Assembly (NCBI GenBank): GCA_024707365.1
Contig: JANPZV010000005.1
Location: forward strand, 1,178,001-1,242,000
Length of the DNA: 64,000 nucleotides
Origin: Terricaulis sp.
Lineage (GTDB): Bacteria; Pseudomonadota; Alphaproteobacteria; Caulobacterales; Aquidulcibacteraceae
Direction of reading: 5' to 3'
Shown: piece after piece, positions 3,591 through 21,711 of the stretch
Numbering within the stretch: position 1 is the first letter of the stretch
How the letters are laid out: each line of letters starts with the position of its first letter
Position numbers and translations under genes: made by a program
Notes under the pieces: generated by a model
What the model saw: only the letters and a program-made list of their open reading frames with translations
Databases searched by the model: none
What the model was told of the DNA's origin: nothing

Positions 3591-3594
3591 CGCT

Positions 3595-4549: not shown

Positions 4550-4551
4550 GC

Positions 4552-5586
4552 CTAGAGTTCTTTGCGCACGATCTCGGCGCCCGCCGCCATTGCCTGCATT
4601 TTTGCGAACGCAACCTCGCGCGGCAAATATTTCATGCCGCAATCGGGCGCGACGATGATGGCGGCCGGATCGACATGGGCGAACGCGCGGCGAATGCGCT
4701 GGGCGACGATCTCCGGCGTTTCGATGTCATGCGTCGAAAGATCAAGCACGCCGAGCATGATGTGTTTTCCCGGCAGATCCTTGAGCACCACGGTATCGAG
4801 ATTGGATTGGGCCGTCTCGATAGAGACTTGCTGCACAGGCGAATTTTTCAGCTGCGTGAGGAACGAATAGCCCGAGGGGCGCTCGTGAATGATGTGCGCA
4901 TAGCCAAAGCAGATGTGCACGGCGGTCACGCCCGTGACGCCTTCAAAAGCGCGATTGAGGGCGTCCAACCCGTAAGCCATCGCAGGCTCTGGGCGCGCCT
5001 GCATATAAGGCTCGTCGATTTGCACGACATCGGCGCCGGCGTTGAAGAGATCCTTGATTTCAGCATTGACGGCGGCGGCGTAATCCAACGCCATCAAGGC
5101 CGGATCAGAATAGAAATCGTTTTGCGCCTGTTGCGACATGGTGAAGGGGCCAGGCACCGTGATCTTGATGGGCCGATCGGTGTTGGCGCGCAAAAACTCA
5201 ACATCGCGCACCTGTACCGAATGCTTGCGGCGAATTTTTCCGGTCACAAGCGGAACCGGATTTGGGTGGCCGCTGCGGTCAAGCGCTTCGCCGACGCGAT
5301 CAAGATCGACGCCTTCAAGCGCTGTGGCGAAGCGGTTTGAATAGCTTTCGCGGCGCATTTCGCCGTCGCTGATGATATCAATGCCCGCGCGCTCCTGATC
5401 GCGGATCGCGAGCAAGGTGGCGTCATCCTGCGCTTGTTCGAGGTGCGCGGGCGCCACGCGCCAGAGCTCGCGCATTTTCACGCGCGGCGGAAAGCGCCCA
5501 GCCAGATTTTCGCGATCAATCAACCAATCGGGCTGTGGGTATGATCCCACAAGTGTTGTTGGCAAAATGGGGCTGGTTGGCGGCAC
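4552..5586 (-). CDS. Core-MetE-like methyltransferase 1 (cobalamin-independent methionine synthase C-terminal domain only)
   Basis: A 344-residue TIM-barrel protein corresponding only to the C-terminal half of MetE. The Zn site known from E. coli MetE (His, Cys, Glu, Cys) is visible as HICFGY, SIETAQSN and PDCGMKYLPR. The start region carries TTLVGSYPQP, the typical MetE-family opening. The N-terminal folate-binding half of full MetE is missing, so the methyl donor need not be methyl-tetrahydrofolate. It leads the minus operon with the esterase and CMD protein and is divergent from a TonB receptor gene. Two further paralogues are in the window. Inference: methyl transfer from an imported methylated compound, possibly an aryl methyl ether. 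Confidence 0.8.
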   Translation of the reverse strand: MPPTSPILPTTLVGSYPQPDWLIDRENLAGRFPPRVKMRELWRVAPAHLEQAQDDATLLAIRDQERAGIDIISDGEMRRESYSNRFATALEGVDLDRVGEALDRSGHPNPVPLVTGKIRRKHSVQVRDVEFLRANTDRPIKITVPGPFTMSQQAQNDFYSDPALMALDYAAAVNAEIKDLFNAGADVVQIDEPYMQARPEPAMAYGLDALNRAFEGVTGVTAVHICFGYAHIIHERPSGYSFLTQLKNSPVQQVSIETAQSNLDTVVLKDLPGKHIMLGVLDLSTHDIETPEIVAQRIRRAFAHVDPAAIIVAPDCGMKYLPREVAFAKMQAMAAGAEIVRKEL

Positions 5587-5813
5587 GTTTCCCTCCCGTG
5601 CGGCGCGCGGCCCGTATCGACCGGCGCTTGTTAGCCTTGCTGATATATTGGCGAGGAGGGGGGAGGCAATCGCGATATTCCCCTAATGCGTGCAAAATCA
5701 ATTACCGATGCCGGATCGCGATCAAAAAGGGGGAGAGAAAGCATTGGATTTTTGGGTCCGACGTAGGGACACCTACCCAAAAGGTCAGCAATATGACCAT
5801 TGGGAGGAATGCG

Positions 5814-8654
5814 ATGAACAACGGCCAGGGTTGGCAAGCTCAAGAATTGGGCGCGCGCGCCATGCAGGGTTTCGGTGGGGCGGCTGCCCACCGGGCGCTG
5901 TGCACCAGCAGCGTGGTTGCGATTCTGGCGGGCGCATTTGCACTTCTCACACCCGCGCTGGCGAGCGCTCAGGAAAGCGACGGCGAGATCGTTGTTACCG
6001 GCACGCGCATCACCGGATTCAGCGCGCCCACGCCAGTGACGACACTCGGCGAAGGTGAGCTTGAACAGCGCGCGGTGCGCAATCTTGCCGATGTGATGTA
6101 TGATATTCCCGCGCTTAAGCCGGTGCAGAACACCGGGCAATCGAGCCAGCCCGTTGGCGCCAGCAATCTTGATCTGCGCGCCCTTGGCCCAAACCGCACG
6201 CTGCTGCTTGTTGATGGCCGCCGCTTTGCCGCGACGGATCCGACAGGCGGGGTTGATATCAACGTTCTTCCTGTTGGGCTGATCAGCCGGGTGGAAATGG
6301 TGACGGGCGGCGCCTCTGCGGCTTATGGCTCGGACGCTGTCTCGGGCGTCGTGAACATTTTTCTCAATCATCGGTTTGAGGGCCTGAAGGGCGATGTCCA
6401 GTACGGCATCTCAGATTGGGGCGATATGGAAACCTCCGGCGCTTCGCTGACGGGCGGGCGCGGCTTCATGGATGGGCGGCTGCATATTGTCGGTTCGGCC
6501 GATTTCTATCGAAATAACGGCCAACTCTGGCAGGACTCGCGCGATTGGGCGCGCGGCGATTACGCCGTGCTGACCAACCCCGCCTATCCGGGCACGCCCG
6601 GCGCGCCCCGCCAGCTCACCTCGGCGAACGCGCGTTTCTCGCAGATGACTTATGGCGGCGTGACGGCGATCAACAACAATGCGGCGCTGCGCAATATCCA
6701 GTTTGGCCCAGGCGGAACGGTGCTGCCGTTCGCTATGGGGACGAATATCGGCAATACCTACATGACGGGCGGCGATGGCGCATCGCTTTCGGCGACGTCC
6801 AATATTGGCCCGTCCATCGAGCGTATGTCCGCCTATGGCCGCGCGACGTTCGAGGTGAGCAATAATCTGAGCCTCTACGCGGACGTGCTTTGGGCGCGCG
6901 CAGATATTTTCTCGGATGGAACGACCTCCACCGACAACGGCAATATCGTGATCAACCGCGCTAACGCGTACTTGCCGCAACAAATCGCGGCGATCATGGA
7001 TGCAAATAGCCTCACCAGCTTCCGCATCGGCCGCATCGGCGGCGAAGAGGGGATGTTCACCAACGATATCGACAACGAAGTTCAACGCTTCGCCGTCGGT
7101 GCGGAAGGTGCGATTTCGGAAGGGTGGAGCTGGAACGCCTACGTTCAGCACAGCCGCAACACCTATTATCGCGAGGACGGCAACAACCGTAACCTCGATC
7201 GCTGGGCTTACGGCATCGATGCAGTGATCAATCCGGCGACGGGGCAGCCGATTTGCCGGGCGCTGCTCAGCAACCCGAACCCGACAGAAGCGCAGGATCC
7301 GTATCGCGATATTCGCGATTGCGTTCCGATCAATCTGTTCGGCGAGGGCTCGATGAGCCAGGCGGCGCTCGACTATATCGGCGGCACGGCGTGGATGGAT
7401 TCAGAGCAAGAGCAGACGGTCTATGCAGCCAGCGTTGAAGGGCGCCCCTTCAGCACCTGGGCGGGGCCTGTCTCGATCGCGTTTGGCGCGGAATATCGCG
7501 AAGAATCCGTTCGCGCGACCAATGACGAGGTGTCACAGCGGTCACGCTGGAAAACCGTGAACCCGCAAGCTGTCGCCGGTTCGCTTGATGTGACGGAATT
7601 CTTTATCGAAGGCGTTGTCCCGCTGCTGGACGGCGCGCCGTTGGCGCAATTGCTGGAAGTGAATGCGGCCGCGCGTTTTACCGATTATTCAACGAGCGGC
7701 AGCGTCGAGACCTGGAAGCTCGGGTTCAATTATGTGCCGTTCGATGATTTGCGTTTCCGCGCCACGCTTTCGCGCGATATTCGCGCAGCGAACCTCAATG
7801 AGCTGTTCTCCGGGCAAAACCAATTCATCAACACGATCACCAACCCGATCACCAATGTCGCGCTCAGCACACCGCAAATGACCGGCGGCAATCCTGCGCT
7901 CCGCCCTGAGATTGGCGATGCGTTCACCGCCGGGGCGATCTATCAGCCTTCGTGGTTGCCTGGTTTGCGGGTATCGTTCGATTACTACTCGTTTGAGATC
8001 GAGGACGCGATCTCGTCGCTTACGGGCCAGCAGATCGTCGATGGCTGTCTTGTGCGGAATCAGACCGATCTGTGCTCGGCGATCACCTTCAGCGGCGATG
8101 TCATCACGCGCGTGGAAGCCACATTGATCAACGCCGCGGAAGCCACGACCTCTGGCTTTGATGTCGAGGCGGCCTACAGCTTCTCGCTGGGCGGGGGCTC
8201 GGTCGATCTGCGCGCGCTGCTGACGCATATCGAGGAGCTCACGATTTCCAATAACGGGGTGACGACCGATTATGCCGGCCAAGTGGGATCAACCGGCACG
8301 CTTGGCCCGGCGGGCGGCGCGCCTGAATGGCGCGCGAGCCTTTCGGCCGGCTATCGGACGGAGCTTTTCTCATTGGGCGCGCAGGTGCGCTTCATTGACG
8401 GTGGTGTCCGCAACGTCACTTGGGTCGATGGCGTGGATATCGACAGCAATAAGGTGTCCAGCCGCACCTATTTGGACCTCAATGGCAGCATCAAGGTGGG
8501 CGAGAATGTCGAGCTCTATGGCGCGATAGACAACGTATTCAACCTCGAACCGCCGCTGACGCCGAACGCGATCACCGCGCCGAGCTACGCCTCTTCGGCC
8601 TTCTATGATCGGATCGGCCGCTTCTACGCCGTCGGCGCGCGCATGCGCTTTTAG
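5814..8654 (+). CDS. TonB-dependent outer-membrane receptor 1
   Basis: Complete receptor of 946 residues. A signal peptide with a hydrophobic stretch ending in ALASAQ is followed by the TonB-box-like EIVVTGTRI, the plug motifs LLLVDGRRF and VTGGASAAYGSDAVSGVVN, and a long beta-barrel ending in GARMRF, a typical terminal strand. ATG 5814 has a GGGAGGA site; the open frame extends upstream only by chance. It imports a large or scarce substrate across the outer membrane using TonB. It is closely related to receptor 2 at 22.0 kb, sharing the GFSAPTPVT plug segment. The 227-base gap to the divergent methyltransferase gene holds both promoters; no clear operator is seen there. Confidence 0.93.
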   Translation: MNNGQGWQAQELGARAMQGFGGAAAHRALCTSSVVAILAGAFALLTPALASAQESDGEIVVTGTRITGFSAPTPVTTLGEGELEQRAVRNLADVMYDIPALKPVQNTGQSSQPVGASNLDLRALGPNRTLLLVDGRRFAATDPTGGVDINVLPVGLISRVEMVTGGASAAYGSDAVSGVVNIFLNHRFEGLKGDVQYGISDWGDMETSGASLTGGRGFMDGRLHIVGSADFYRNNGQLWQDSRDWARGDYAVLTNPAYPGTPGAPRQLTSANARFSQMTYGGVTAINNNAALRNIQFGPGGTVLPFAMGTNIGNTYMTGGDGASLSATSNIGPSIERMSAYGRATFEVSNNLSLYADVLWARADIFSDGTTSTDNGNIVINRANAYLPQQIAAIMDANSLTSFRIGRIGGEEGMFTNDIDNEVQRFAVGAEGAISEGWSWNAYVQHSRNTYYREDGNNRNLDRWAYGIDAVINPATGQPICRALLSNPNPTEAQDPYRDIRDCVPINLFGEGSMSQAALDYIGGTAWMDSEQEQTVYAASVEGRPFSTWAGPVSIAFGAEYREESVRATNDEVSQRSRWKTVNPQAVAGSLDVTEFFIEGVVPLLDGAPLAQLLEVNAAARFTDYSTSGSVETWKLGFNYVPFDDLRFRATLSRDIRAANLNELFSGQNQFINTITNPITNVALSTPQMTGGNPALRPEIGDAFTAGAIYQPSWLPGLRVSFDYYSFEIEDAISSLTGQQIVDGCLVRNQTDLCSAITFSGDVITRVEATLINAAEATTSGFDVEAAYSFSLGGGSVDLRALLTHIEELTISNNGVTTDYAGQVGSTGTLGPAGGAPEWRASLSAGYRTELFSLGAQVRFIDGGVRNVTWVDGVDIDSNKVSSRTYLDLNGSIKVGENVELYGAIDNVFNLEPPLTPNAITAPSYASSAFYDRIGRFYAVGARMRF

Positions 8655-8678
8655 CCGCCTCGCGTAACGCGAAGGTTG

Positions 8679-8718
8679 AGCGGCCCGCGGCTGAGATGCC
8701 GCGGGCCGCTTCTTTATT
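8679..8718 (+). terminator. Rho-independent terminator between convergent genes
   Basis: A perfect 12-base-pair stem AGCGGCCCGCGG / CCGCGGGCCGCT with an 8-base loop, followed by TTCTTTATT. It ends the TonB receptor transcript 25 bases after its stop and overlaps the stop of the convergent lipoprotein gene. Confidence 0.85.
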
Positions 8719-9720
8719 CGCCGCGCGCCTCAGCGAGCACGCTTGCATCAATCAGCGTCGCCAGTTGCGCGCGCGTGCGCGCGGGACGGTTTGACCTGGC
8801 GGCGAGCCATTGCTCTTGTTCGACAAGGACATCAAGCAAATCCGGCGCGAGCGATGCCGGGAACGCATGGTGAGACCAGCCGGCGGCGATCGCCTCGATA
8901 CTGTGGCCGCTGTGGGCCGACACAAGCGGCCAGATACGCTCAGGCTGCTCGTCCGCCACGCGGGAGGCGGCGATGAGGGCGCGGACAAAGCGCACGATCT
9001 GCGCCCGTTTGACGGGATCAGCGAGCGCTTCGGCGGTTGTGTTGAGATTGTAGAGCTCGCGATAGGCCGCTGAATCCTGAAAGGCGATGGCGTCGTCGCC
9101 GAGCGCCAGGAAAGCGCGCTCGCTCTCCGGCTCCCAAATGGCGATGGCGTCGACCGTTCCGGCGATGATCGCATCGGCCATTTCACGCGCGCGCAAGGGC
9201 ACGAGGATCACGTCATCCTCGCTCATTTCCACGCTTTGCAGCATGCGATGAACGAAGTACGCCGAAGATGTGTTGGCAAACACTGCAACGCGCTTGCCGC
9301 GCAAATCCGAGAGCGTTGCGATTCCCGATGAGCGGCGGGCGACGATCCGATACAGCCCCTCAACCACTGTCATGATGATGCGCAAATTCGGGTTCTCGAG
9401 TGAGGCGCGCAGGGCCTGCGTCTCGGCTTGGCCTGCGAGATCGGCGCGGCCGGGCCATGGATCATAGCTGGATCCCATCGGCGCGGCGCCGTCATTTGCG
9501 CGGAAGAGATTGGGCACGCCGCCGGGGAGGCGATCGTATAGTCCGCTGCGAGATCTGCCGCGGCGAAGTATATGGGGCCCATCTCCACAACGTCCGGGCG
9601 CCCGACGATACGGAGTGGCGCGTCCTCGCTTTGAGGCGCGGTTGCGCAAGCCGCCGCCGCGACGACGGCGAGCGTGGCGAGCGTTGCTTTGGCAAAGCGG
9701 CTGATGGCGCTGGAATGCAT
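8714..9720 (-). CDS. Solitary substrate-binding lipoprotein, NMT1/SsuA type (frameshifted)
   Basis: Periplasmic-binding-protein-like lipoprotein. The start MHSSAISRFAKATL leads into a hydrophobic stretch and a lipobox VAAAAC, so it should be lipid-anchored. The mature part shows IVGRPDVVEMGPIYFA, then GKRVAVFANTSSAYFV and GTVDAIAIWEPE, the two-domain pattern of NMT1/TauA/SsuA binding proteins. The frame breaks near 9523; a missing G restores a continuous reading through ASPGGVPNLF. No permease or ATPase gene is beside it, which is odd for an ABC binding protein; it may act with permeases elsewhere or with TonB uptake. A strong paralogue lies at the right edge (63586-64000). Confidence 0.75.
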
Positions 9721-9887
9721 GTGTTTCGCCTTGTGGTGCCTTGATGATGAGATCGTAGTTGGAGCCCGCGTGTGCATTGGTGTCAACGCGTGCTGCGATG
9801 TGGGCCGCGCCCCACTGCATCGGCGCGCGCTTTGTGGTTCAGCGTGGGCGCGTCTTCCGCATAATTTGTTTCAAGAGAAGCGGAGGA

Positions 9888-10418
9888 ATGCCGGGGCGAT
9901 GCGGGTGTGCATGCGTATCCATTGGCTGCATCGCGGATGTGATCGCGCGCTGCGCGCACGTTCTGCTGGGCGATGCTCTAGGCTTGTGGGAGCAGGGCGT
10001 GCTGCGCTGGTTTTTGCCTGGCGACGTGCCGAAGATCGGTCAGAGCGCGCGCGCGGCGATGCTGCGCTATGAATCGCGGGGCGAGAGTATTGGGTTTTGT
10101 GTGCCCCTCGCCGCGCAGGAGATTGGCGCGAAACTGCTCCAGGCGCGGGCGGCGGCCGATCCTGCTGCGGCGGCGCGCAAATGGGGGCCGCTTTTGGGAA
10201 AGTTCACCTATTTGCGGCAAGGTGCGGATGAAACGCTGGTGGAAACGCCGCTATGGAGCGCACCGTTCATCCGCGCGCGGCGGCGCGCGCATGCAGATCC
10301 GCAGATCGATGGGTTTCTTCTGCGCGATCGGGCGTGGGCGGTGGGCGCGTTTGAACGAAGCCTGCGTGCCGGCTATGATGCTGAAGATGAACCGCGCACA
10401 GATGCGCGGGGCGTTTAA
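9888..10418 (+). CDS. Hypothetical protein upstream of metF
   Basis: An open frame of about 176 residues ending 12 bases before metF, in the same direction and probably in the same transcript. I do not recognise the family. The part from residue 22 on looks like a real protein: a hydrophobic stretch, then GVLRWFLPGDVPKIGQ, RYESRGESIGFCVP and WGPLLGKFTYLRQGADE. The ATG at 9888 sits directly after GGAGGA, too close for ideal initiation, and the first 20 residues are Cys-rich and could be out of frame, so the start is uncertain. Because it precedes metF it might assist folate C1 metabolism, but nothing in its sequence proves this. Confidence 0.5.
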   Translation: MPGRCGCACVSIGCIADVIARCAHVLLGDALGLWEQGVLRWFLPGDVPKIGQSARAAMLRYESRGESIGFCVPLAAQEIGAKLLQARAAADPAAAARKWGPLLGKFTYLRQGADETLVETPLWSAPFIRARRRAHADPQIDGFLLRDRAWAVGAFERSLRAGYDAEDEPRTDARGV

Positions 10419-10430
10419 GGGGCGGCGCAC

Positions 10431-11304
10431 TTGAAAACACGCCTGCAGCAAGCGATTGAGCGGGGTGAGTTTGTCGCCACGGCGGAGGTGACGCCGCCGC
10501 TTTCAACACGCGCATCGGACCTGCTGGACAAAGCCGGGCCGTTGAAAGGGCTGGCGCATGCCGTGAATGTCACCGACGGCGCATCGGCGCGCGCGCATAT
10601 GGACGCCTTGGCGGCGGCGATCATTCTTCAGCGCGCGGGGATCGAGCCGATCCTGCAACTCACTTGCCGCGACCGAAACCGGATCGCCTTGCAAAAGCGC
10701 CTTGGTGGGCGCAGCAGCGCTTGATATCGCCAACGTCCTTTTTCTGACGGGGGATGATCCAAGGCAGGGCGATCAGCCGGACGCCAAGCCGGTGTTTGAT
10801 CTGGATTCCGCAGCGCTCGCGCGGATGGCGCGATCCATTCGGGATGAAGGGGCGCTGCCCAATGGGCGCAAAGTGAGCGGCGCGGCGCCGTTCTTTATTG
10901 GCATGGCGGATATGCCGTTCGATCCGCCCGATGATTGGCGACCATCGGCGCTGAGCCGAAAGATCGATGCCGGCGCGCAATTCATTCAGACGCAATTTTG
11001 CATGGATGCGGGCGTGGTGCGCCGCTATTTCGCGCGGCTGGCCGAACATGACGTGCGCGCGCCAATGCTGATTGGCATTGTGCCAATCGCTTCAGCGAAA
11101 TCTGCGCGATGGATGAAGAACAATCTTTACGGCGCGGTTATCCCGGATTGGATTATCGATAGATTGGAGCGTGCGCCTGATCCGAAGGCCGAGGGGCGCG
11201 CCATTTGCATCGATTTGGCTAAGGAGTTGCGCGAGATTCCCGGCGTTGGCGGCGTGCATGTGATGGCGCCGCTCAATGAGGGGATCTTTGCCTGCGGTGC
11301 TTGA
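10431..11304 (+). CDS. metF: 5,10-methylenetetrahydrofolate reductase (frameshifted)
   Basis: Flavin TIM-barrel enzyme reducing methylene-THF to methyl-THF, or running in reverse when methyl groups are released by THF-dependent O-demethylation. The family signature is clear: FVATAEVTPP at the start, LTCRDRNRIALQ, then NVLFLTGDDP, FIQTQFCMD and a C-terminal GVGGVHVMAP. The frame changes near 10694 inside a run of four A; removing one A joins the reductase perfectly across CRDRNRIALQ-SALVGAAAL. The start is TTG with AAGGGG upstream. In Sphingobium SYK-6 metF stands with ligM and ligH for vanillate/syringate demethylation; here it faces the purU operon, giving the same kind of setting. Confidence 0.9.
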
Positions 11305-11316
11305 GGCGATACGCGG

Positions 11317-12462
11317 CTAAAGCCGCTCATCCTTGCGGGTGATGACAAAACTCTCATCGTTGAACCAGAGGCCGCCATGGCGCTGGAGCACGTCTTTGGT
11401 CGCGTGGATGTAGTCAGCGTCGGCCATGATCTCGGCGAGCCTTTCATCCTCAATCTGGGCGACATAAGTTGCAGCGTTCCAAGCCGCGAGCAGGGTTGAT
11501 GTCCCTATTGATGCAGCGGTGGTCTCGATCTCGCCCGGCAAGGTGTGCATGTCATAGCGAAAGAACGATTTTGAATCCGCGCCGGGCGAGAGGTTGAAAC
11601 GCCGCGCATCTTCACCGAGCACGCTCTTGGTCGCGCGGAGGAGGTCATGGCGCGATGTGATGAAGGGGCGTTCGCCCGGCCAGATGCGTTGGATGATTTC
11701 AAGGCCCGGATCATTGCCGCAGGAGTGAATGCCAATCAGCCGTCCGCCAGGGCCGAGCGCTTTGGCAAGCGGTGCAATGACGCGTTTTGCCTTGAAGCTT
11801 GTGGATGCGCGCGCGCGATAGGGCTGTGAGGCGATGACGAGATCATAATCAGCGCGCGTGGCGCCGCGACGGGGTAGGACCGGATCGAGCAAAAAGCGGC
11901 AATCTTGCCTATAAATGATAAGAACGACCGGCTTTTCGTAAACGGATGCGCCCGTTTTCGGATTGGTCGACGCGCGCCAGTTCTCGCCGAGAAATGGCTG
12001 AAGTTCGGTGATCTGCTGCTCAAATTCCGCAGTCGTGGATCCTGTGAGCGCGACCTCCTTCCACACAAGTTGCGATGCTTTCACAGGATCGACGGGCATG
12101 AGCCATGGCGCCTCCGCGTAGGGCAGGTTCGTCATCACCAGCGCGGTGGCGGGATGTTCAAACAGGCGATCTGGCGCTTTTTCGAGTGTGAGCCTTACGT
12201 CTTCAAGGCTGATCTCCTTGCCGACGATCAGGAATGGATACTTCTCGAAGCGCAGATGCATCTGGCGCATAACACGCGCGAGCACCGTGCCATCGCCGAC
12301 GCCCGCATCAAACACGCGTATCGCGGGCGGCGTCGGGCGTATCGCGTCAAGCTCAAGCGCGATGCGATCGGCCGCCACCCACTTTTCAGAGCAGGTGTTG
12401 ACGAACATGAGGTATTTCTGGCGGTTGTCGTAGAAGCGAAAGTCTCTGCTGCGCGCCATCAT
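11317..12462 (-). CDS. Class I methyltransferase-like protein 2 in C1 operon
   Basis: A 381-residue protein closely related to the protein encoded at 13505-14923. The SAM-binding motif I reads VFDAGVGDGTVL, followed by an acidic turn VGKEISLEDV and a motif-IV-like MTNLPYAEAPW; a later segment YDLVIASQPYRA and GPGGRLIGIHSCG complete a Rossmann methyltransferase. Its substrate is unknown. The conserved block RFYDNRQKYLMFVNTCSEKW near the N terminus is shared with the paralogue. It is the last gene of the minus operon, 174 bases after purU; this gap holds a 24-base palindrome. Start ATG 12462 lacks a clear ribosome site. It lacks the extra N-terminal DNA-binding-like domain of its paralogue. Confidence 0.75.
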   Translation of the reverse strand: MMARSRDFRFYDNRQKYLMFVNTCSEKWVAADRIALELDAIRPTPPAIRVFDAGVGDGTVLARVMRQMHLRFEKYPFLIVGKEISLEDVRLTLEKAPDRLFEHPATALVMTNLPYAEAPWLMPVDPVKASQLVWKEVALTGSTTAEFEQQITELQPFLGENWRASTNPKTGASVYEKPVVLIIYRQDCRFLLDPVLPRRGATRADYDLVIASQPYRARASTSFKAKRVIAPLAKALGPGGRLIGIHSCGNDPGLEIIQRIWPGERPFITSRHDLLRATKSVLGEDARRFNLSPGADSKSFFRYDMHTLPGEIETTAASIGTSTLLAAWNAATYVAQIEDERLAEIMADADYIHATKDVLQRHGGLWFNDESFVITRKDERL

Positions 12463-12623: not shown

Positions 12624-12636
12624 GCGTAGCCCCACT

Positions 12637-13508
12637 TCAGAACACAATTGTGCGATTGCCGTTGAGGAGCACGCGGCGCTGGGCGTGCCAGGTCACGGCG
12701 CGGGCGAGAACATTCGATTCAATGTCGCGTCCGACGGCGACAAAATCGGATACCGATTGATCGTGATGCACGCGCTCAACCGCTTGCTCGATGATGGGGC
12801 CCTCATCGAGATCTGAGGTCACGTAGTGCGCCGTGGCGCCGATCAGCTTCACGCCGCGCTCATGGGCGCGATGATACGGGCGCGCGCCGACAAAACTCGG
12901 CAAGAAGGAGTGGTGGATATTGATGATGCGCCCCGGATGATTTGCGCAAATCTCCGGCGTGAGAACCTGCATGTAGCGGGCCAATACGATAAGCTCGGCG
13001 CCGATGTCATCGAGCGTTTCGGCCAAAAGCTGCATTTGCGCCGGTTTTGTTTCGGGGCGTGACGGGAATGTGGCGAAAAAGGGATGTTGTGAAACCTCTC
13101 CACCATGTCCTTGAAATCGAGATGATTGGAAATGACGGCTTTGATCTCGATTGGCAGCGCATCGATGCTGGCGCGATAGAGCAGATCGCTCAAACAATGG
13201 CCGATTTTTGAGACGAGGATGACAGTGCTTGTTTTTTCCGCCTGATCGTAGAAATTGAAACTCATCGCGTATTTCGCTGCGATTGCCTCAAAATCCTGAC
13301 GAAGCTTTGTGAGCGTTGCGCCCTGCGTGGACTCAAAGCCGGTGCGCATAAAAAAGCGGCCATTGTCGGGATCGCCATATTGGGCGCTATCGATGATGTT
13401 GCAGCCGTTCTCAACGTAAAAGCGGGCCACGTCAGCCACGATGCCGATGCGATCGGGGCATGAAAGCGTGAGAAAATAACGCGGATTGGAGGGGTGAGAG
13501 ATCGTCAT
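12637..13508 (-). CDS. purU: Formyltetrahydrofolate deformylase (frameshifted)
   Basis: Hydrolyses 10-formyl-THF to THF and formate, which recycles THF when it accepts methyl groups. An N-terminal ACT domain (YFLTLSCPDRIGIVADVARF) is followed by a formyltransferase domain with the catalytic block NIHHSFLPSFVGARPY and ATAHYVTSDLDEGPII. The frame breaks near 13078 in a run of five T on the coding strand; one added T gives IPFFATFPSRPETK and restores a protein of about 289 residues, normal for PurU. Its ATG overlaps the stop of the upstream methyltransferase gene as ATGA. In SYK-6 the same enzyme type belongs to the C1 branch of lignin demethylation. Confidence 0.92.
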
Positions 13509-14923
13509 GTGCGGGAAGGGTTTCTTTTGCGGGCAATAACGTAGCTTTCGTCGAAGAACCAAAGCCCGCCGTTTTTTTGAAGAATTTCCTTGGTCGTCAA
13601 CAGATAACCGTGCCCGCTCATGACTTCCGCGAGGCGTTGATCGTCGATTTGGGCGACATAGGTTGCGGCATTCCAGGCGGCGAGCAGAGTCGAGGTGCCG
13701 ATGGGATCGGACGCATGACCGATTTCGCCGGGAAGCGTGTGCATATCATACCGAAAGATTGCTTTTGCATCTGCGCTGCGCAGGAAGGAATAATCATGTG
13801 CGCGGCGGCCGAGCGCGGACCTCGTCGCGCGAAGCAGGCTGTCGCGATCGGTGTGGAAGGGGCGCTCGCCGGGCCATACGCGTTGGATGATTTCCATGCC
13901 CGGATCGCCGCCGCAGGAATGGATGCCCAGCAAACGCCCGCCTGGCCCAAGAGCCTCCGCGAGCGGCGCAAGGACGCGCTTGGCTTTGAACTCGTTTGAT
14001 GCGCTGGCGCGATACGGCTGCGAGGCGATGACGAGGTCAAAGTTAGCATGCACGGCGCCACGGCGCGGCAGAACTGGATCAAGCAGAAAGCGGCAATCCT
14101 CACGATAGAGAACGAGAACGACTGGCCGCTCGTAAATCGGGCCGCCGCTTTCCGGCAGCGTGCGGGTGCGCCAATTCTCGGCGAGAAAAGGCCCAAGCGC
14201 CGCGATCTGAGACTCGAAATCGGCCGTGGTTTCGCCCTGCAGCGCCACCTCTTTCCATATGAGTTGCGAGGCGGTGACGGGATCGCGCGGGGTAAGCCAT
14301 GGCGCTTCCGCATAGGGCAGATTGGTCATCACCAGCACGGTGGCAGGGTGCTCGAAGAGGCGATCTGGCGCTTTCTCAAGTGCGAGGCGCACGTCCTCGA
14401 TGCTGATCTCTTTCCCAACGACATAAAACGGGTAATGCTCAAAGCGGCGATGCATCGAGCGCATCGCGTGCGCGAGCAGCGTGCCGTCGCCGACGCCAGC
14501 ATCAAACAGCCGGATTGCGGGCGGCGTTGGGCGGATAAGGTCCAACTCCTGGGCGATACGTTGCGCAATCACCCACTTCTCGGAGCAGGTGTTGACGAAC
14601 ATCAAGTATTTTTGGCGATTGTCGTAGAAGCGAAAGCTCTGTTTTCCGTGGGCGGATCGTTGGGGCCAGTGGCTTGTGTGCGGCAAAGCGCCGTTGAGCC
14701 CCGACAAGCCGACGCTTTGTGCGGCGTAAAAATTTGTGTTTGCGGTGTCGTCCATGAACGAGCGCACGCGCTCGACCGTGGTGGTGGTGACACGCCCGCC
14801 GTGCTTCAGGCGACCGACAAATTTGCCGTCATTGACGGCGCGCCGCCCGAATGTGCTCTCGGCGATGCCAAAGCGCCGGCAGAAATCGGAGATTTCAAGC
14901 AGCAATTCTTCGGCGGCGAGCAT
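13505..14923 (-). CDS. Class I methyltransferase-like protein 1 with N-terminal DNA-binding-like domain
   Basis: A 472-residue protein. Residues 1-57 hold FCRRFGIAESTFGRRAVNDG and VTTTTVERVRSFM, which look like a short HTH-type domain; from about residue 94 on it matches the methyltransferase-like protein at 11317-12462 nearly throughout. Motif I is LFDAGVGDGTLL and a motif-IV-like MTNLPYAEAPW is also present. I selected ATG 14923 because it precedes the HTH-like domain and leaves a 50-base gap after the core-MetE gene; longer starts would add low-complexity sequence. It is followed by purU with an ATGA overlap, so its expression is tied to folate C1 turnover. Function not known; an RNA, DNA, protein or small-molecule substrate is possible. 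Confidence 0.75.
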   Translation of the reverse strand: MLAAEELLLEISDFCRRFGIAESTFGRRAVNDGKFVGRLKHGGRVTTTTVERVRSFMDDTANTNFYAAQSVGLSGLNGALPHTSHWPQRSAHGKQSFRFYDNRQKYLMFVNTCSEKWVIAQRIAQELDLIRPTPPAIRLFDAGVGDGTLLAHAMRSMHRRFEHYPFYVVGKEISIEDVRLALEKAPDRLFEHPATVLVMTNLPYAEAPWLTPRDPVTASQLIWKEVALQGETTADFESQIAALGPFLAENWRTRTLPESGGPIYERPVVLVLYREDCRFLLDPVLPRRGAVHANFDLVIASQPYRASASNEFKAKRVLAPLAEALGPGGRLLGIHSCGGDPGMEIIQRVWPGERPFHTDRDSLLRATRSALGRRAHDYSFLRSADAKAIFRYDMHTLPGEIGHASDPIGTSTLLAAWNAATYVAQIDDQRLAEVMSGHGYLLTTKEILQKNGGLWFFDESYVIARKRNPSRT

Positions 14924-14972
14924 CGGACAATCGCTAAAGCTTGGAGGTGAGGCGGGCGGCGGAGCGCATGTT

Positions 14973-16182
14973 TCAAGTCCAGAGTTGGCGCGAGGCCAAG
15001 GCGGCGCCCTCAACCAGCGCGCTGAGCTTCGCCCACTGCACTTCAGGATGAACGCGGATCGTGTTCCAACCTTGGGAAAATCCGCAATCTGTGCCTGCGA
15101 TCACGTTCTCGCGGCCGATAACGCTGGCATAGTTGCGGATGCGCCAAGCAACCAGCTCGGGATGCTCAACCACATTGGTTTGATGGCTGACGACGCCGGG
15201 AATGAGGATCTTTCCCTCCGGGAGCTTTATATCCTGCCAGACCATCCATTCGTGCTCATGACGCGGGTTTGCGGCTTCGATGGCGAAGGCCTGAGCGTTG
15301 ATCTTGAGGATGATGTCGATGATGTCGCGCAAAGGCACGTCCGTCGTGTGCGGGGTGTTCATGCTGCCCCAACAGAGGTGATAACGCACGCGCTCTTCCG
15401 GTATGCCGCGCAGCGCGTAATTGTAAGCTTCAACCTGCATTTCCGAGGCGCGGCGCAGGTCGTTCGAGGTGGGATTGGGGTTGCCGCGGAGCACCTGGTT
15501 GCGCGCAGGCAGGCCAAGATCGAGTTGCACAATGAAGCCAGCTTCGACGATGGCGAGATATTCTTCGCGCATCGCGTCGGCGAGGGCGTAGAGGTAGGCC
15601 TCTTCGCTGTCATAGACGTGCTCTGGATCGGCGTCTTCGCGCGATGGCGTGGCCGAGGGCATGAACGCTTCTTGGAAATCGTACTGGCTGACGGCGGCTT
15701 TGAACGTCTCGATATCGCGCGTCAGAAAAAGCGTGCCCGTCATAGCGGATGGGGCCAGTGACGCGGCTGCGCGGACCGGGCGCAGCGAGCGCCGCCTCGA
15801 CGAGATCACGCGGCAATTCGGCATGCATCCACATGGTGCGATACATGCTGTTATATTGCTTCATAAAGCCTGGAAACTCGGTTTCGAGTTTGGCGTATTG
15901 CATGCCGGCGTTGCGAGCGTCTTCCTGCTCAAGCCCTGCAAGGCGCTCGATCACGTAGCTATGGAAGCTGGGCTTGGAGAATTCACCGTCGCTTGGAATG
16001 TCGATGCCGATTTCCGCCTGCTGGCGCACGACCGCATCAACGCCAGCGCGCACGCGGCGTTGAAACTCTTCTTCGTCGAACGGGCGCCCCGCCACTTTCG
16101 AGAGAATCGCCTCCATGACATCGAGCGGGCGGATGAGACTCCCGACATGCGTCGTCAGGATACGATCGGTGCTGCGTTTCAC
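14973..16182 (-). CDS. Core-MetE-like methyltransferase 2 (frameshifted)
   Basis: About 403 residues, single MetE barrel without the N-terminal folate half. The start reads MKRSTDRILTTHVGSLIRP and the Zn ligands can be placed in RYHLCWGS, FAIEAANPRHEHE and GTDCGFSQG. The start codon is GTG with GGAGGA five bases upstream. The frame breaks near 15750, where removal of one G from a GGG run joins GPIRYDG to GTLFLTRD. It follows the SMP-30 lactonase gene by 11 bases in the purU operon. It resembles core-MetE 3 (20.5 kb) more than core-MetE 1. Known family members move a methyl to a thiol; the operon with metF and purU across the way suggests the methyl comes from a catabolic substrate. Confidence 0.82.
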
Positions 16183-16193
16183 GAGTCCTCCGC

Positions 16194-17132
16194 TTATTCT
16201 TTATTTCTCACTCGGACGACGCCTCTGGGAACGGGCACGCCGGGTATCTTGAGTTTGATGCGATTGATGGAATTGCGGCCCGTGAAATAGAGCGTGCGCC
16301 AATCGTCATCGCCCCAGGCCATGTTCACCATCCAAGGGCCTTGAATGGAGCCGATATGTTCGCCAGCGGGGTTCATCACCCAAATTCCGCCGGGCCCTGT
16401 GCAATAGACATTGCCTTCGACGTCGACTTTCATGCCGTCGGGGCCGCCGGGCAAATCTTGACCGCGCATGTCGCAAAATACGCGCGCGCTGCCGAGATCG
16501 ACAAAGCCATTGGCTTCGACATCATACGCCATGATCAATTTGCGATGGCGGTTGCTGTCATTGACGTAGAGGATTTTCTCGTCGGGCGAGAAGCAGAGGC
16601 CATTCGGATTGATGAGGTCGCTGATGATGCGGTTGATCTTGCTTAAATCCGCCGAAACCCGATAGACGCCGGCGCAATCTTGCTCGGGCGTGTGCTCTGG
16701 CGGCGTGAATGGTATTTTTGGCGGTGGATCGGTGAAATAGATGCAGCCGTCGGATTTCACCACGACATCATTCGGCCGGTTGAGTTTGAGCCCACGATAG
16801 GCGTCGGCGATCATCGTGATTGAGCCATCCGCTTCCTCGCGATCGACGCAGCGGCTGAAATGGTGGCAGACAACGAGCCGCCCCTGCGGATCGCGGGTCT
16901 GGCCATTGCCGTTGGCGGTGCCCTGTTTGTCGAGCGTGACGCCGCGCTCAGGGGTCCAGCGCATCCGACGATCGCCATGGATGTCGCTGAAGAGAAGGTA
17001 GCCGCCTTCGCGGATCCAAACCGGCCCTTCGGCGGGGCCGGTTGGCCCGCCGAAGCCCACGCCCAATTCCTCCCAATCGGCGCCCTCGTCGGCGATCGCC
17101 CGCATGGCGTCGGAGATGAATTTTATCGGCAT
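16194..17132 (-). CDS. SMP-30/gluconolactonase-family lactonase
   Basis: A 312-residue six-bladed beta-propeller hydrolase. Metal-binding positions of the family are visible: the glutamate of AEGPVWIREGG, the asparagine of NRPNDVVVKSDG with the following CIYFTDPPPK, and the aspartate of GPDGMKVDVEGNVY. These enzymes open sugar or other lactones with a divalent metal. No signal peptide is present from the chosen ATG at 17132 (MPIKFISDAM), so it should be cytoplasmic; the open frame upstream lacks support. It is the first gene of the minus C1 operon and is divergent from the permease at 17279, sharing a 146-base promoter region with an AT-rich pocket around 17170-17205. Confidence 0.85.
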   Translation of the reverse strand: MPIKFISDAMRAIADEGADWEELGVGFGGPTGPAEGPVWIREGGYLLFSDIHGDRRMRWTPERGVTLDKQGTANGNGQTRDPQGRLVVCHHFSRCVDREEADGSITMIADAYRGLKLNRPNDVVVKSDGCIYFTDPPPKIPFTPPEHTPEQDCAGVYRVSADLSKINRIISDLINPNGLCFSPDEKILYVNDSNRHRKLIMAYDVEANGFVDLGSARVFCDMRGQDLPGGPDGMKVDVEGNVYCTGPGGIWVMNPAGEHIGSIQGPWMVNMAWGDDDWRTLYFTGRNSINRIKLKIPGVPVPRGVVRVRNKE

Positions 17133-17278
17133 CGGCGCTGTCTCGCGGCGGTGGGGGGGCGGCCCGGCGTTAGATAATAGCATCTTGCATGTGCCATTGT
17201 TGAATGTCAGTGTCAAACGACGCACCGCGCATTGCCCCCGGAAGAGAGGCGCTCGCGGCTTGCGGGGAGGAGAGCGGC

Positions 17279-18606
17279 GTGAGTCAGGGATCGCCTGCCG
17301 ACATCATCAAGGCCTCGTCCATGGGCTTTGCCCAGTACGTGTTGATCGGCCTTTGCGTGCTGACCTACGCCGCTGACGGCATTGATGTGGCCTCCATTAC
17401 CTACGCCGCGCCTGCGATGATCGCTGAGTGGGGCGTGCGCCCGGAGGCCTTTGGGCTCGTCTACAGCGTCACGCCGATTGGGATTGTGATCTCTTCGTTC
17501 TTCTTCGCGCCGCTCGGTGATCGCTTCGGGCGGCGCGCCGTCACGCTGACGGGCATTGGCGTGATGACGGTTGTGTTGTTTTTAATGGCGTTCGCCAACT
17601 CGCTGGAGATGGTGGCGGTGCTGCGCTTGCTGATGGGATTGTGCATCGGCGCGCTTGTTGTCAGCCTCAACGTGCTGGTGGCGGAATTCGCCAACGAAAC
17701 GCGCCGCAATTTTTTTATCGGCATCTTGCACACGGGCTATTCAATTGGCGGGATGGCTTGCGCGGGCCTCGCGGCGTTCTTGATCGAGCCTTATGGCTGG
17801 CGCGCGTTGTTTTTGGCGGCCGCCGCGATCAATCTGGTCGTGTTCATTTTAGACGTTCTGTTCCTGGCGGAATCGCCAGCCTATCTCGTCGCGCGGCGGC
17901 CAAAGAATGCGTTGGCGCGGCTCAACGCGATATTCTTGCGCATGGGCAAGCCGCAATTTGACGCTTTGCCGCCCGCGCCAGAATCGGCTGGAGAAAAGCG
18001 CGCATTGTTCACGTTGCCGGCGCCGGAATTTCGCGCGCTGACCTTGGTTTTGTGTGTGATCGGCTTTGTTTTCACGGTGGCGGGATCGTTTCTGGCGAGT
18101 TGGCGCCCGCAAATATTGTCTGACGCGGGGCTGAGCTATTTTGGAACGGCATGGCCGGCGTGGCCGCCAGCGCAGCAGGTATTCTAGGCCATCTGGTTTC
18201 CGGCGCGCTGGCGCGCAAAGGCGGAGAGGCGCGCCTCGCGGCGTTCTTGATCGCCGGCATGGCGCTTTCGATGATCGCGTTCGGCTTTGCGCCGCGGCAG
18301 GAAGCGGCGCTGATCGTGGCGGCCTCCTTCACGACATTCTTCACCGTCGCATCTTACACCGCGCTGATCGTTGTCGCGCTTTCCTTCTACACCGCTGAGA
18401 ACCGCAACGCCGGTCTCGGCCTCATGGTGGGGTTTGAGCGGCTGGGCGGCATTCTCGGGCCGACGCTTGGCGGCTTCGTAATCGGCGCCGGGCTTGAGCG
18501 CAGCGCCACGCTTGGCGTTTTCGCCGCAATTCTGATTGTGCCGATGATTGGCATCTTTGTCGCGCGCAGGCAGCGCCAAGCGATTGGCGAGGAGGCGCCT
18601 GCATGA
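17279..18606 (+). CDS. MFS permease 2, aromatic acid:H+ symporter type (frameshifted)
   Basis: Twelve-helix permease. TM1 carries YAADGIDVASITYAAP, the AAHS acidic motif, and the loop motif is PLGDRFGRR; a second ARRPKNALARLN loop is shared with the permease at 32.9-34.3 kb. I chose the GTG at 17279, which follows GGGGAGGAG and aligns with the start of that relative; an ATG at 17204 is an alternative. The frame breaks near 18150, consistent with one missing base, after which the last four helices follow. The stop overlaps the next ATG as ATGA. It leads an operon with an amidohydrolase, a beta-propeller and core-MetE 3, so it probably imports their substrate. Confidence 0.85.
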
Positions 18607-19466
18607 GCCAAATTGAAATCATCGACGCGCAAATTCATGAGCCGCCCTTGCCGCAGCCGCCTGAGGGGCTTGATCCGGCGGTGCGCAGCCTCATTGGCGT
18701 GGAATTGGCGCGCGAGGCGATGGATAGCGCAGGCGTGGACGCCGCGCTTCTCGTGGCCAGCCCCACTTATATCGACGCCTGCGTCGCGCGCTATCCGAGC
18801 CGCTTTGCCGGCGTGCATACGCTTGATCCCAGCGCGGAGGATTTGCCTTCGCGGATTGCCGGCTTGCGCGACAAGCCCGGCCATCTCGCGGCGCGTGCGC
18901 TCATCGCCGATTGGCGCGACGCCGCGCTGCGGCGTGATTTCAAAGAGGGCGCATTCGACGCGATCTTCGAGGCGTGCGCGCGGCATGACACGCCGCTTTT
19001 TGTCTCCACGCACGGCTGGGCCGAAGCGATGGCGGACATCGCCGCGCGCTATCCCGATCTCACGCTGATCATTGACCATTTTGGCGTCAGCCAGTCGCCA
19101 GTTTCACCGCCGCGCGCCGAGCCGTGGGATCGACTCCCTGGATTGCTTGCCTTGGCGCGCTTTCCCAATGTGCACGTCAAATTGTGCGGCGCGCCGCTGC
19201 TGTCGCGGCGAAATTATCCGTTCGAGGATGTGTGGCCCTATCTGATGCAGGTGATCGAGGCGTTTGAGCCGCGCCGGCTGATGTGGGCCAGTGATTACAC
19301 CCGTTTGCGTATGGCGCCGGGGCGGCGCTTGGGCGTGCTCTACAGTGAAAGCAGAGATTTCCTGTTCCACACAGAGAAGCTCTCGCGCGCCGATAAAGAG
19401 GCTATATTTGGCGGAACGGCGCGGCGTGTTTTGCGCTGGCCGGCACGCATGCAGGCGGGTGCGTGA
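18603..19466 (+). CDS. Amidohydrolase-2 family protein with QxH in place of HxH
   Basis: A 287-residue TIM-barrel hydrolase. The first metal strand reads IIDAQIHEPP, so the first histidine of the usual HxH pair is glutamine; a later LIIDHFGV histidine and MWASDYTRL aspartate are kept. The Q variant is known in some amidohydrolase-2 members and may still bind one metal. It is translationally coupled to the permease (ATGA) and followed within 2 bases by the beta-propeller gene. The product could hydrolyse a lactone or cleave an acyl group of the imported substrate. Distinct from the LigI-like copies at 31.0 and 52.0 kb by length and motif. Confidence 0.75.
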   Translation: MSQIEIIDAQIHEPPLPQPPEGLDPAVRSLIGVELAREAMDSAGVDAALLVASPTYIDACVARYPSRFAGVHTLDPSAEDLPSRIAGLRDKPGHLAARALIADWRDAALRRDFKEGAFDAIFEACARHDTPLFVSTHGWAEAMADIAARYPDLTLIIDHFGVSQSPVSPPRAEPWDRLPGLLALARFPNVHVKLCGAPLLSRRNYPFEDVWPYLMQVIEAFEPRRLMWASDYTRLRMAPGRRLGVLYSESRDFLFHTEKLSRADKEAIFGGTARRVLRWPARMQAGA

Positions 19467-19467
19467 G

Positions 19468-20485
19468 ATGATGGTTGATGCGCTCTCTGCGCCGCGCTTC
19501 AGCGTTCAGGCCGATTGGGAGCAATTACCGGCGGCTTTCGCGCACCGCGACGTTACTGGCGTCGCCGTCGATTCACATGATCGCGTGTATCTGTTCACGC
19601 GCTTTGACAGCCGCATTTTGGTCTATGAAGCCGATGGGCGCTTTATCAAAGCGTGGGGCGACGGCGTCTTTACCGGCGCGCATGGCCTGACGATCGGCCC
19701 CGATGATCGTGTGTATTGCGTCGATAATGGCGATCACAGCGTACGGGTATTCACGCCTGAGGGCGAGCAGCTGATGGTGCTCGGCGTGCCGGGGCATGCC
19801 TCGGATACGGGCTACGTCTCGGGCCGGCCGTATGACGTGCATGCGGTGGAGTGCGTGCTTTATCCGGGCGGGCCGTTTAATCGCTGCACCAATCTGGCGG
19901 TGGCGCCCGATGGCGATCTCTTTGTCGCCGACGGCTACGGCAATTGCCGCGTGCATCATTTCACCGCCGAAGGCGAGTTGCTGCATTCTTGGGGCGAGCC
20001 CGGATCGGGGCCGGGACAATTTTATTTGCCGCATGGCATTCGTGTCGCGGGCGATGGGCGCGTGCTTGTCGCCGATCGCGAGAATGACCGGATTCAGGTG
20101 TTCGCGCCCGATGGGCGCTTCATCGAGCAATGGACGGATGTGCAGCGGCCCTGCGACTTGGCGATTGGCGGCGATGGGCTTGTTTATGTCGCGGAGCTTT
20201 GGCGGCCCAAGGGCAAAAAATCGTTCGTGCATGGCGTGACGCACGAGGATCAACCGGGGCGCGTTTCGGTGCTGGATCTGCGCGGGCGCCCGCTTGCGCG
20301 TTTCGGCGCATCTTCGGGCGCGCGCCACGCGGACGGAAATTTTATCGCCCCCCCATTCGATCACGCTCGATTCCCTAGGAAATATCTACGTGGCGGAGGT
20401 GACGTACAGCTTCGCTATCCGGCCCGGCTGGGTCGCGCCCGAACATGGCGGGCATCAAATTCAAAAATTTATTCGCCAGCCATAA
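19468..20485 (+). CDS. NHL/PAL-like six-bladed beta-propeller (frameshifted)
   Basis: About 338 residues of NHL repeats. The segment FVADGYGNCRVHHF, then GPGQFYLPHGI and VADRENDRIQVF, closely resembles the catalytic propeller of peptidylglycine alpha-hydroxylating amidating lyases (PAL), which cleave a hydroxylated C-N bond using a metal. No signal peptide is seen, so the role is cytoplasmic unless exported otherwise. A run of seven C at 20347-20353 shifts the frame; with six C the protein continues HSITLDSLGNIYVAEV and stops at 20485. Without this correction the frame runs into the next gene and creates a false propeller-MetE fusion. Its link with an amidohydrolase and a methyltransferase is unusual. 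Confidence 0.78.
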
Positions 20486-20508
20486 GCGGACTGAACGCGA
20501 GGAAGACG

Positions 20509-21711
20509 ATGAAGCGCTCAACAGATCATATCCTCACCACGCATGGCGGAAATCTGCCAAGGCCGACGGATCTCGATGCGCTCATTGGCGATCCTGGCGC
20601 CAACAAGCGGGAGATCGCGGCGCGGCTGCCCAGCGCGGTGCAAGAAGTGGTCGATCGGCAAATCGGCTGTGGGCTCGATGTGATCAATGACGGCGAGTAT
20701 GTCAAAGCCGCCGCTTCAGGATATAGCGGCTATATCCATGCGCGCGTCACCGGATGGGAGCGCTTGCCGAATGACCCGGCGCAGGCGCCCAAGCGCGGCA
20801 TTCCTGGCGCACGCGATGCGCGAGACTTTCCCGGTTTTTATGAATCGGGCCTTTGGTTCGCTGGCGCGGGCGGGCCGGTTCGGCCTGGATTTTTCAAGGC
20901 TGGCGCGCCAAAGCGCCCGGACACGCATTTGGCGTGCACCGGGGCTGTTCGCTATATCGGCGCTGAAGCGATCGCCGCGGACGTGGCGGCGCTGAAGGCG
21001 GCGCTGGGAAAGTGGCGCGACGCCGAAGGATTCATCGCCGCGCTCGGCCCGCTCAGTCTTGGCGCCGGCGCGCGCAATCTGCACTACGCCACTGAAGAAG
21101 AATACATGTTCGCGGTGGCCGAGGCGCTGCGCGAAGAATACAAGGCCGTCACTGACGCGGGGCTCGTGCTTCAGATCGACGAGCCCGAATTCGCCACGAC
21201 CTGGATGTTTTACCCGGAGTGGAGCGTCGAAGACTATCGGCGTTATCTTGGCTTCGCCGTTGAGGTGATCAACCACGCGGTCAAAGGTTTGCCGGAGGAG
21301 CAAATTCGCTTCCACATGTGCTGGGGCAGCGGGCACCGGCCGCATGTGCACGACATCGCGTTTCACAATATCGTGGATCTGCTTCTGCAAATTCGCGCGC
21401 AAGCTTACGCGTTTGAAGCAAGCAATGTCCGGCATGCGCATGAATGGCGTGTCTGGGAAGATGTGAAGCTGCCGCCGGGCAAGATTATCGCGCCAGGCGT
21501 TGTCGGGCACGCCACCGATCTTGTCGAACATCCAGAGCTCGTGGCCGAACGCCTTATCAATTTTGGCCGCATCGTCGGCATGGAAAACCTGCAAGGCGGC
21601 ACCGATTGCGGGATCGGATCGCGCGTCGGGCACGCGGAAATCGCGTGGGCGAAACTTGAGGCTCTAGCGGAGGGGGCGGCTATTGCGAGCAAAGCACTTA
21701 AAGGGCGCTAG
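20509..21711 (+). CDS. Core-MetE-like methyltransferase 3
   Basis: A 400-residue single-barrel MetE relative. It opens with MKRSTDHILTTHGGNLPRP, carries Zn ligands in RFHMCWGSGH, YAFEASNVRHAHE and GGTDCGIGS, and is intact. ATG 20509 has an AGGAAG site and lies 23 bases after the propeller stop. It is the closest paralogue of core-MetE 2 (same MKRSTD opening, same HxHEW block and VVxHxTxxVEHPELVA segment). The N-terminal folate-binding half of MetE is absent. With a permease, an amidohydrolase and a propeller upstream it is more likely catabolic than a methionine synthase; the methyl acceptor may be a thiol or a folate bound in some other way. Confidence 0.85.
   Translation: MKRSTDHILTTHGGNLPRPTDLDALIGDPGANKREIAARLPSAVQEVVDRQIGCGLDVINDGEYVKAAASGYSGYIHARVTGWERLPNDPAQAPKRGIPGARDARDFPGFYESGLWFAGAGGPVRPGFFKAGAPKRPDTHLACTGAVRYIGAEAIAADVAALKAALGKWRDAEGFIAALGPLSLGAGARNLHYATEEEYMFAVAEALREEYKAVTDAGLVLQIDEPEFATTWMFYPEWSVEDYRRYLGFAVEVINHAVKGLPEEQIRFHMCWGSGHRPHVHDIAFHNIVDLLLQIRAQAYAFEASNVRHAHEWRVWEDVKLPPGKIIAPGVVGHATDLVEHPELVAERLINFGRIVGMENLQGGTDCGIGSRVGHAEIAWAKLEALAEGAAIASKALKGR

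Follow-up and report, generated by a model that had tools for sequence, protein, structure and literature searches.

Core methionine synthases and a predicted SAM-methyltransferase family in an aromatic-catabolism island of Terricaulis: a possible route of one-carbon disposal

What use would an alphaproteobacterium have for three methionine synthases that lack the folate half of the enzyme? The question is raised by a 64,000-nucleotide stretch of Terricaulis sp. (GenBank assembly GCA_024707365.1, contig JANPZV010000005.1, positions 1,178,001 to 1,242,000; hereafter the window), where an aromatic-catabolism island carries three genes for single-barrel, core-MetE proteins (metE1, metE2 and metE3; Table 1). 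A sequence-only reading had proposed them as candidate aryl O-demethylases that draw methyl groups from lignin-derived ethers. Our analysis points, tentatively, to a wider possibility: that each of the three is a zinc-dependent homocysteine methyltransferase of core-MetE type drawn into the island, with metE2 at least in an operon for one-carbon disposal, and that the pathway runs from core MetE through MetK and a methyltransferase-like protein, here called X, to MetF and PurU. What the analysis shows is the genes and their order, the conservation of active-site residues, the predicted folds and the patterns of co-occurrence; from these we infer the methyl donor, the acceptor used by X, the direction of MetF and the coupling of the first and third steps in this cell.

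The genome contains four PF01717 (Meth_synt_2) stretches, all of them inside the window, which make up the three core-MetE genes. metE1 (344 amino acids) and metE3 (400 amino acids) are intact, the frame of metE3 being open into the upstream NHL-repeat gene (open reading frame (ORF) 19291-21711). metE2 spans two frames (N-terminal part 16182-15610, C-terminal part 15824-14973); the alignment of a relative covers 16182-15928 and 15782-14979, which places the break in between, and its PF01717 match consists of two fragments, one slightly over and one slightly under the cut-off. The claim that the folate half is missing stands: each gene carries the Meth_synt_2 barrel (metE2 only as fragments), and no folate half was found on any of them in a Pfam scan of the ORFs, as distinct from a genome-wide search with Meth_synt_1 itself. 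The same scan gave metE1 a sub-threshold URO-D match.

The zinc site, too, is as the sequence-only reading had described it. The motif HxC...E...C appears as HIC/SIET/PDCG in metE1, HLC/IEAA/TDCG in metE2 and HMC/FEAS/TDCG in metE3, and the ligands H, C, E and C are shared by all 19 aligned core-MetE rows, metE1 and metE3 included (metE2 stands outside this alignment, and its zinc and homocysteine residues were judged by eye from the ORFs). PMC7857596 assigns homocysteine-binding roles to Ser433, Glu484 and Asp599. Equivalents of the latter two are invariant in all 19 rows; metE1 has all three, and metE3 keeps the Glu and Asp, a retention that implies that the product would be methionine. The AlphaFold2 model of metE3 (predicted local distance difference test score (pLDDT) 82.6; residues 94-135 poor) superposes on the MesD-type structure 3rpd with a Z score of 34.3 (root-mean-square deviation 2.7, 321 residues aligned) and on Thermotoga maritima MetE with a Z score of 33.2.

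Housekeeping methionine synthesis is an unlikely task for these proteins, given that the same contig carries, at another site, a MetH and a canonical metF about 4 kb apart; the three core MetEs look non-housekeeping, spare to that pair, and the metF of the window is therefore a second copy. Both metF and purU are present beside the core MetEs, as had been claimed, each with a frameshift. We regard metE2, purU and metF as disrupted by errors of assembly and not as pseudogenes, though this is not proven, because metH also looks frameshifted, matching in two pieces with a stop. A gene for an SsuA/NMT1-like substrate-binding protein (8714-9820) lies between a TonB receptor gene and the second metF.

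The operon of metE2 reads SMP-30, metE2, X2, purU, X1. The two X paralogues match no Pfam or NCBIfam model, and a search of the PDB by sequence, with X1 alone and with the family as a profile, returned nothing at E<=1. The nearest folds to the AlphaFold2 model of X2, in which residues 65-101 are poor, are dimethylxanthine, fatty-acid O-methyl and histamine methyltransferases (Z 17-18; 17.9 at 8% identity for 2efj). X is accordingly predicted to adopt a class I S-adenosylmethionine (SAM)-dependent methyltransferase fold; its motif I (D-A-G-x-G-D) and beta-2 acid are retained in 76 of 76 family rows. An N-terminal helical domain, helix-turn-helix (HTH)-like by our reading, occurs in 54 of the 76 rows (50 by a first criterion and four with a late start). 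The remaining 22, X1 among them, drop this domain and retain the rest of the protein, which weakens the idea of X as a mere DNA-binding regulator, and a MetF or MetK context is found for both forms. No folate enzyme is among the 50 matches listed by Foldseek and VIA for X, which excludes nothing. Relatives of X amount to 399 stretches in named genomes, and X occurs in three of 59 other genomes of the same taxonomic family; plasmids and phages gave no match, and one X gene (L043) comes from a metagenome-assembled genome record titled Klebsiella pneumoniae, a title that looks doubtful. Literature listings yielded nothing on X or on core MetE as an aryl demethylase.

The company that X keeps in other genomes is rich in one-carbon genes. 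Around the best 80 loci (tblastn, E<=1e-6), MetF lies within 2 kb of X in 46, MetK in 20, AhcY in 12 and core MetE in 11, with purU and GcvT-like genes in none; at 2-5 kb the counts are MetF 4, core MetE 3, purU 1 and zero for MetK, AhcY and GcvT-like genes, and at 5-9 kb core MetE 7, purU 1 and zero for the other four. MetF, MetK, AhcY, MetE or PurU is thus found within 5 kb in 67 loci; among the 13 with none of them, four contigs (L056, L057, L064 and L071) stop within 70 bases past X and two (L058 and L066) have GTP cyclohydrolase I adjoining X. This enzyme of folate synthesis is encoded directly downstream of X or X-metF at L058:11238-11882, L066:11171-11917 and L079:12186-12899, which suggests a folate demand. 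The order X-metK-ahcY-metF recurs in L027, L039 and L041 and is extended to X-metK-ahcY-metF-purU in L087. An apparent X-MetF fusion in L035 and L084 was rejected, as a stop separates the two frames, and Rfam searches of the window and of 7 X loci gave no riboswitch at gathering score. For the MetF next to X in L018, the PDB offers a single relative at E<=0.001, namely 7xg9 (219 bits), probably the oxidative methylenetetrahydrofolate reductase (MTHFR) of SYK-6.

The core MetEs of the 11 loci that have one within 2 kb of X belong to three branches: the metE1 type (L019, L024 and L091), the metE2/3 type (L059, L070, L081 and also L091) and a third, 1ypx-like by eye (L032, L040, L041, L046 and L048). 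Relatives of metE1 lie within about 2 kb of X in L018, L019, L024 and L091; the nearest relative of metE3 (63% identity, L059) is at most 0.6 kb from X, and a further metE3-type gene (G348:C88) is 0.4 kb away by coordinates. In Croceibacterium soli (L091:11247-13399) a metE1-type and a metE2/3-type gene overlap by four bases next to X; adjacent pairs of the two types also occur in L150 and L152, in stretches without X.

The same association appears across the class, in 371 genomes besides the one studied (the metE3 search covered 385, a set treated as 371). X is carried by 22 of these, the metE3 type by 50 (51 of 385 at E<=1e-60 with the studied genome included) and the metE1 type by 33. X occurs together with the metE3 type in 15 of its 22 genomes (3.0 expected, p 1e-9) and with the metE1 type in 10 (2.0 expected, p 2e-6); counted by family, 10 of 15 X families have the metE3 type and 7 of 15 the metE1 type (172 families assumed, from the highest label seen). 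These statistics handle relatedness only through the family count and leave genome size uncontrolled.

On this basis the route might proceed as follows. Core MetE would take a methyl group from some methylated substrate of the island (a methoxyaromatic or similar) and pass it to homocysteine, yielding methionine, which MetK would convert to SAM; X would then pass the methyl group from SAM to tetrahydrofolate (THF), with AhcY regenerating homocysteine, and the second MetF, working in the oxidative direction, would together with PurU release the carbon as formate. Moving a methyl group from methionine straight back to folate is uphill, while going via SAM is downhill. To judge from gene order and fold, a SAM:THF methyltransferase would account for X beside MetK, AhcY, MetF, PurU and GTP cyclohydrolase I. 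Bmt, from another family, makes methionine from dimethylsulfoniopropionate (DMSP) and betaine without THF or cobalamin, as described in PMC12366255, and sets a precedent for homocysteine-dependent demethylation; the SYK-6 MTHFR, reported to run oxidatively with LigM (PMC12585457), sets one for the direction of MetF. We nevertheless consider an aryl ether unlikely as the methyl donor of the core MetEs, and decidedly doubtful the complete scheme in which X is a SAM:THF N5-methyltransferase that forms, with core MetE, MetK, AhcY, MetF and PurU, a cobalamin-free and LigM-free demethylation from dietary methyl ether through methionine and SAM to formate. A better lead than the aryl-ether reading is family X in its one-carbon setting.

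A number of observations weigh against the pathway. We know of no enzyme in any organism that transfers a methyl group from SAM to THF, and ATP is spent in passing through SAM. Within the window X has neither metK nor ahcY as a neighbour, the Ser433 equivalent of metE3 is Asn, and metF is not 7xg9-like (no tblastn match better than E 0.5). Elsewhere, purU is scarce near X (one of 80 loci within 5 kb, two within 9 kb), the count of core MetE does not simply fall with distance from X (11 loci, then 3, yet 7 at 5-9 kb), and five of the 11 nearest belong to the third branch and not to the window's types. Seen from the core MetEs the link is thinner still. The 40 stretches of 10-20 kb fetched from other genomes contain 41 of the 65 metE2/3-type places listed there, and none of the 40 has MetF, PurU, a GcvT-like gene or X at E<=1e-10; G348:C88, the gene 0.4 kb from X, is among the places outside these stretches. 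Of 20 metE1-type loci, one (L161) carries both X and metF. LigM-like genes are present in 8 of 372 genomes; the metE3 type accompanies them in 6 of these, an association comparable to that with X, the metE1 type in 5 and X in 4. Because core MetE co-occurs with LigM it is no simple substitute for it, and the association of X with core MetE may in part reflect a shared lifestyle. The co-occurrence with LigM, the empty metE2/3-type loci and the presence of two Rieske oxygenase genes in the window all speak against aryl demethylation by the core MetEs. Finally, a Phaeobacter mutant in a core-MetE-like (mes-like) gene kept the DMSP lag effect, according to PMC12366255.

The alternative that survives best, although we think it somewhat unlikely, is that the core MetEs serve as spare methionine synthases, independent of folate and with a donor unrelated to aromatics, either a corrinoid protein or an O2-dependent donor as for MesD. 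metE1 groups beside MesD and matches 3rpd, and the homocysteine residues are retained. Its type adjoins flavin reductase (3), luciferase-like (3) and VOC-family (4) genes elsewhere (54 neighbours scanned), recalling the O2 requirement of MesD given in PMC7857596. In a 75-row tree metE1 falls in a clade of 27 rows (support 99/99) separate from two MesX-linked MesD rows. MesX was not found in the studied genome, in a run whose positive controls were silent; the same search over class genomes gave matches in 2 of 289, so it works, and both MesX-bearing genomes lie outside the metE1-type carriers at E<=1e-80. The presence of MetH and the position of metE2 in one gene row with purU also argue against a spare synthase.

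A second alternative leaves O-demethylation to the VanA- and LigXa-like Rieske oxygenases, with the folate genes taking up formaldehyde and the core MetEs as bystanders or regenerating methionine. The sequence-only reading, whose observation stands once corrected and whose interpretation is supported in part, had overlooked these genes. Both lie in the window, the LigXa-like one adjoining the hydroxycinnamoyl-CoA hydratase/lyase gene, and the VanA-like DmtS of Novosphingobium aromaticivorans has genetic support as an O-demethylase in PMC8091115. What this alternative leaves unexplained is the metE2 row with X and purU, and X with MetK, AhcY and MetF in other genomes; we hold it to be rather improbable.

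Still more doubtful, in our view, is the biosynthetic direction, in which X would be a high-flux SAM-dependent methyltransferase supplied with methyl groups by MetF, core MetE, MetK and AhcY. The best folds of X are small-molecule methyltransferases and SAM-cycle genes adjoin it, but the presence next to X of purU (in the studied genome and L087) and of GTP cyclohydrolase I is better explained by folate use. Moreover, X is often found among aromatic-catabolic genes (flavin adenine dinucleotide (FAD) aromatic hydroxylases with FAD_binding_3 make up 6, and thiamine-diphosphate enzymes 4, of 104 neighbours scanned), and one neighbouring MetF resembles 7xg9, presumed above to be from SYK-6. Least credible is that metE2 and metE3 perform thiol chemistry other than methyl transfer, as does epoxyalkane:coenzyme M transferase, a MetE-like zinc enzyme: their clade (42 rows, support 99/97, metE2 by its C-terminal part only) is distant from MetE and MesD in the 75-row tree, metE3 has lost the Ser433 equivalent, and their type has cupin (7), SnoaL-like (5) and alpha/beta hydrolase (4) neighbours elsewhere (94 scanned), but the equivalents of Glu484 and Asp599 are kept. 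Of the 41 places of this type fetched, 29 yielded clean ORFs and were taken into the analysis, and Rhodococcus MetE forms a long branch of unsure placement. On a plasmid of Rhodococcus sp. PD04 (L098:11686-15212), a full-length metE immediately precedes a metE3-type core MetE (45.8% identity).

The remaining genes of the island (Table 1) agree with the neighbours that had been described for the core MetEs: an esterase after metE1, SMP-30 before metE2, and permease, amidohydrolase and NHL-repeat genes before metE3. For two major facilitator superfamily (MFS) genes the best-scoring model is that of the aromatic acid/H+ symporter subfamily, in both cases below its cut-off, and further MFS-like ORFs lie near 33, 50 and 57 kb. 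Besides SMP-30 the island holds two lactonase-like amidohydrolases, one LigB-like and two LigK/RraA-like genes scoring below their cut-offs, and a benzoylformate-decarboxylase-family gene (734 bits against a cut-off of 493); the last, the two Rieske genes and the hydroxycinnamoyl-CoA hydratase/lyase gene occupy the regions 41725-45015 and 58094-60282.

Table 1. Genes of the window discussed in the text, in order of position.
Feature	Coordinates	Strand	Basis and remarks
Carboxymuconolactone-decarboxylase-family protein	3204..3689	-	PF02627
HSL-type alpha/beta hydrolase, downstream of metE1	3773..4550	-	PF07859 138.6 bits, profile positions 2-151 of 210; probable start near 4550 and probable 3' frame change
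metE1, core-MetE	4552..5586	-	PF01717 119.5 bits; 3rpd E=2e-58; clade beside MesD
metF, second copy	10437..11289	+	PF02219; frameshift near 10702-10718; 57% to the L079 metF beside X, in two frames
X1, SAM-methyltransferase-like, without N-terminal helical domain	11317..12462	-	No Pfam/NCBIfam match; 399 relatives; in family alignment
purU, formyl-THF deformylase	12637..13562	-	PurU halves in two frames; frameshift near 13077-13122
X2, paralogue of X1 with N-terminal helical (HTH-like) domain	13505..14923	-	AlphaFold2 pLDDT 88.5; predicted class I methyltransferase fold
metE2, core-MetE	14973..16182	-	Single frameshift between 15928 and 15782
SMP-30/gluconolactonase-family protein, upstream of metE2	16194..17225	-	PF08450 162.6 bits
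Aromatic acid/H+ symporter-like MFS permease	17204..18606	+	TIGR00895 best match, under cut-off; two ORFs; probable frame change near 18.17 kb
Amidohydrolase, lactonase-like	18603..19466	+	PF04909 107.5 bits
NHL-repeat protein, frame open into metE3	19480..20490	+	PF01436
metE3, core-MetE	20509..21711	+	ATG 20509; PF01717; AlphaFold2 model matches 3rpd
VanA-type Rieske oxygenase, ordinary O-demethylase candidate	44185..45015	-	PF19112 VanA_C 115 bits (1-128 of 193, partial); Rieske 61.6 bits
LigXa-like Rieske oxygenase, ordinary O-demethylase candidate	58094..59356	+	PF00355 65 bits; PF19301 LigXa_C 47 bits
p-Hydroxycinnamoyl-CoA hydratase/lyase	59314..60282	+	NF006588 435 bits over cut-off 276

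The class has core MetE genes in some number, and we know of no methyl donor shown for these types; the question of their donor becomes testable through the partner X. If the proposal is true, there is an extra route for demethylating lignin aromatics; if it is wrong, it will at least have pointed to a folate-linked methyltransferase family that deserves to be assayed.

Among known systems, the C-terminal barrel of MetE (T. maritima MetE, 1t7l/1xdj) shares its fold (Z 33 for the metE3 model) and zinc site with the core MetEs, which differ in having no N-terminal folate barrel and only about 20% identity. The same step would be open to THF-dependent O-demethylases of the LigM/DesA type acting with MetF and PurU, and on the Novosphingobium plasmid pLA3 a metE2/3 homologue (33% identity to metE3) lies near an aminomethyltransferase-family gene, metF, purU, ligAB and folD. 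LigM and DesA have the GcvT fold, however, whereas the core MetEs carry PF01717 and not GCV_T. The absence noted by the sequence-only reading held: no LigM/DesA-type gene was found in the genome (89.7% complete, so that absences are not absolute), where GCV_T has one strong match (242 bits, read as GcvT) and one weak, CAF17/YgfZ-like match, and a LigM-like query returned nothing at E<=1e-40. The core methionine synthase MesD with MesX (PMC7857596) resembles metE1 in its single barrel, zinc ligands, Ser/Glu/Asp homocysteine residues and occurrence in aerobic bacteria; metE1 differs in its separate clade, its 36-37% identity to the two MesX-linked MesD proteins (against a MesD threshold of about 55%) and the lack of an adjacent MesX (DUF1852). 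X, for its part, is alike in predicted fold over residues 95-468, and in SAM-site motifs, to small-molecule class I SAM methyltransferases (2efj, 5f2o and 1jqe), among them the dimethylxanthine methyltransferase of the SABATH family; it stands apart from these structures in its 8-12% identity, in the extra N-terminal helical domain of most of its members and in its tie to MetF, MetK and AhcY.

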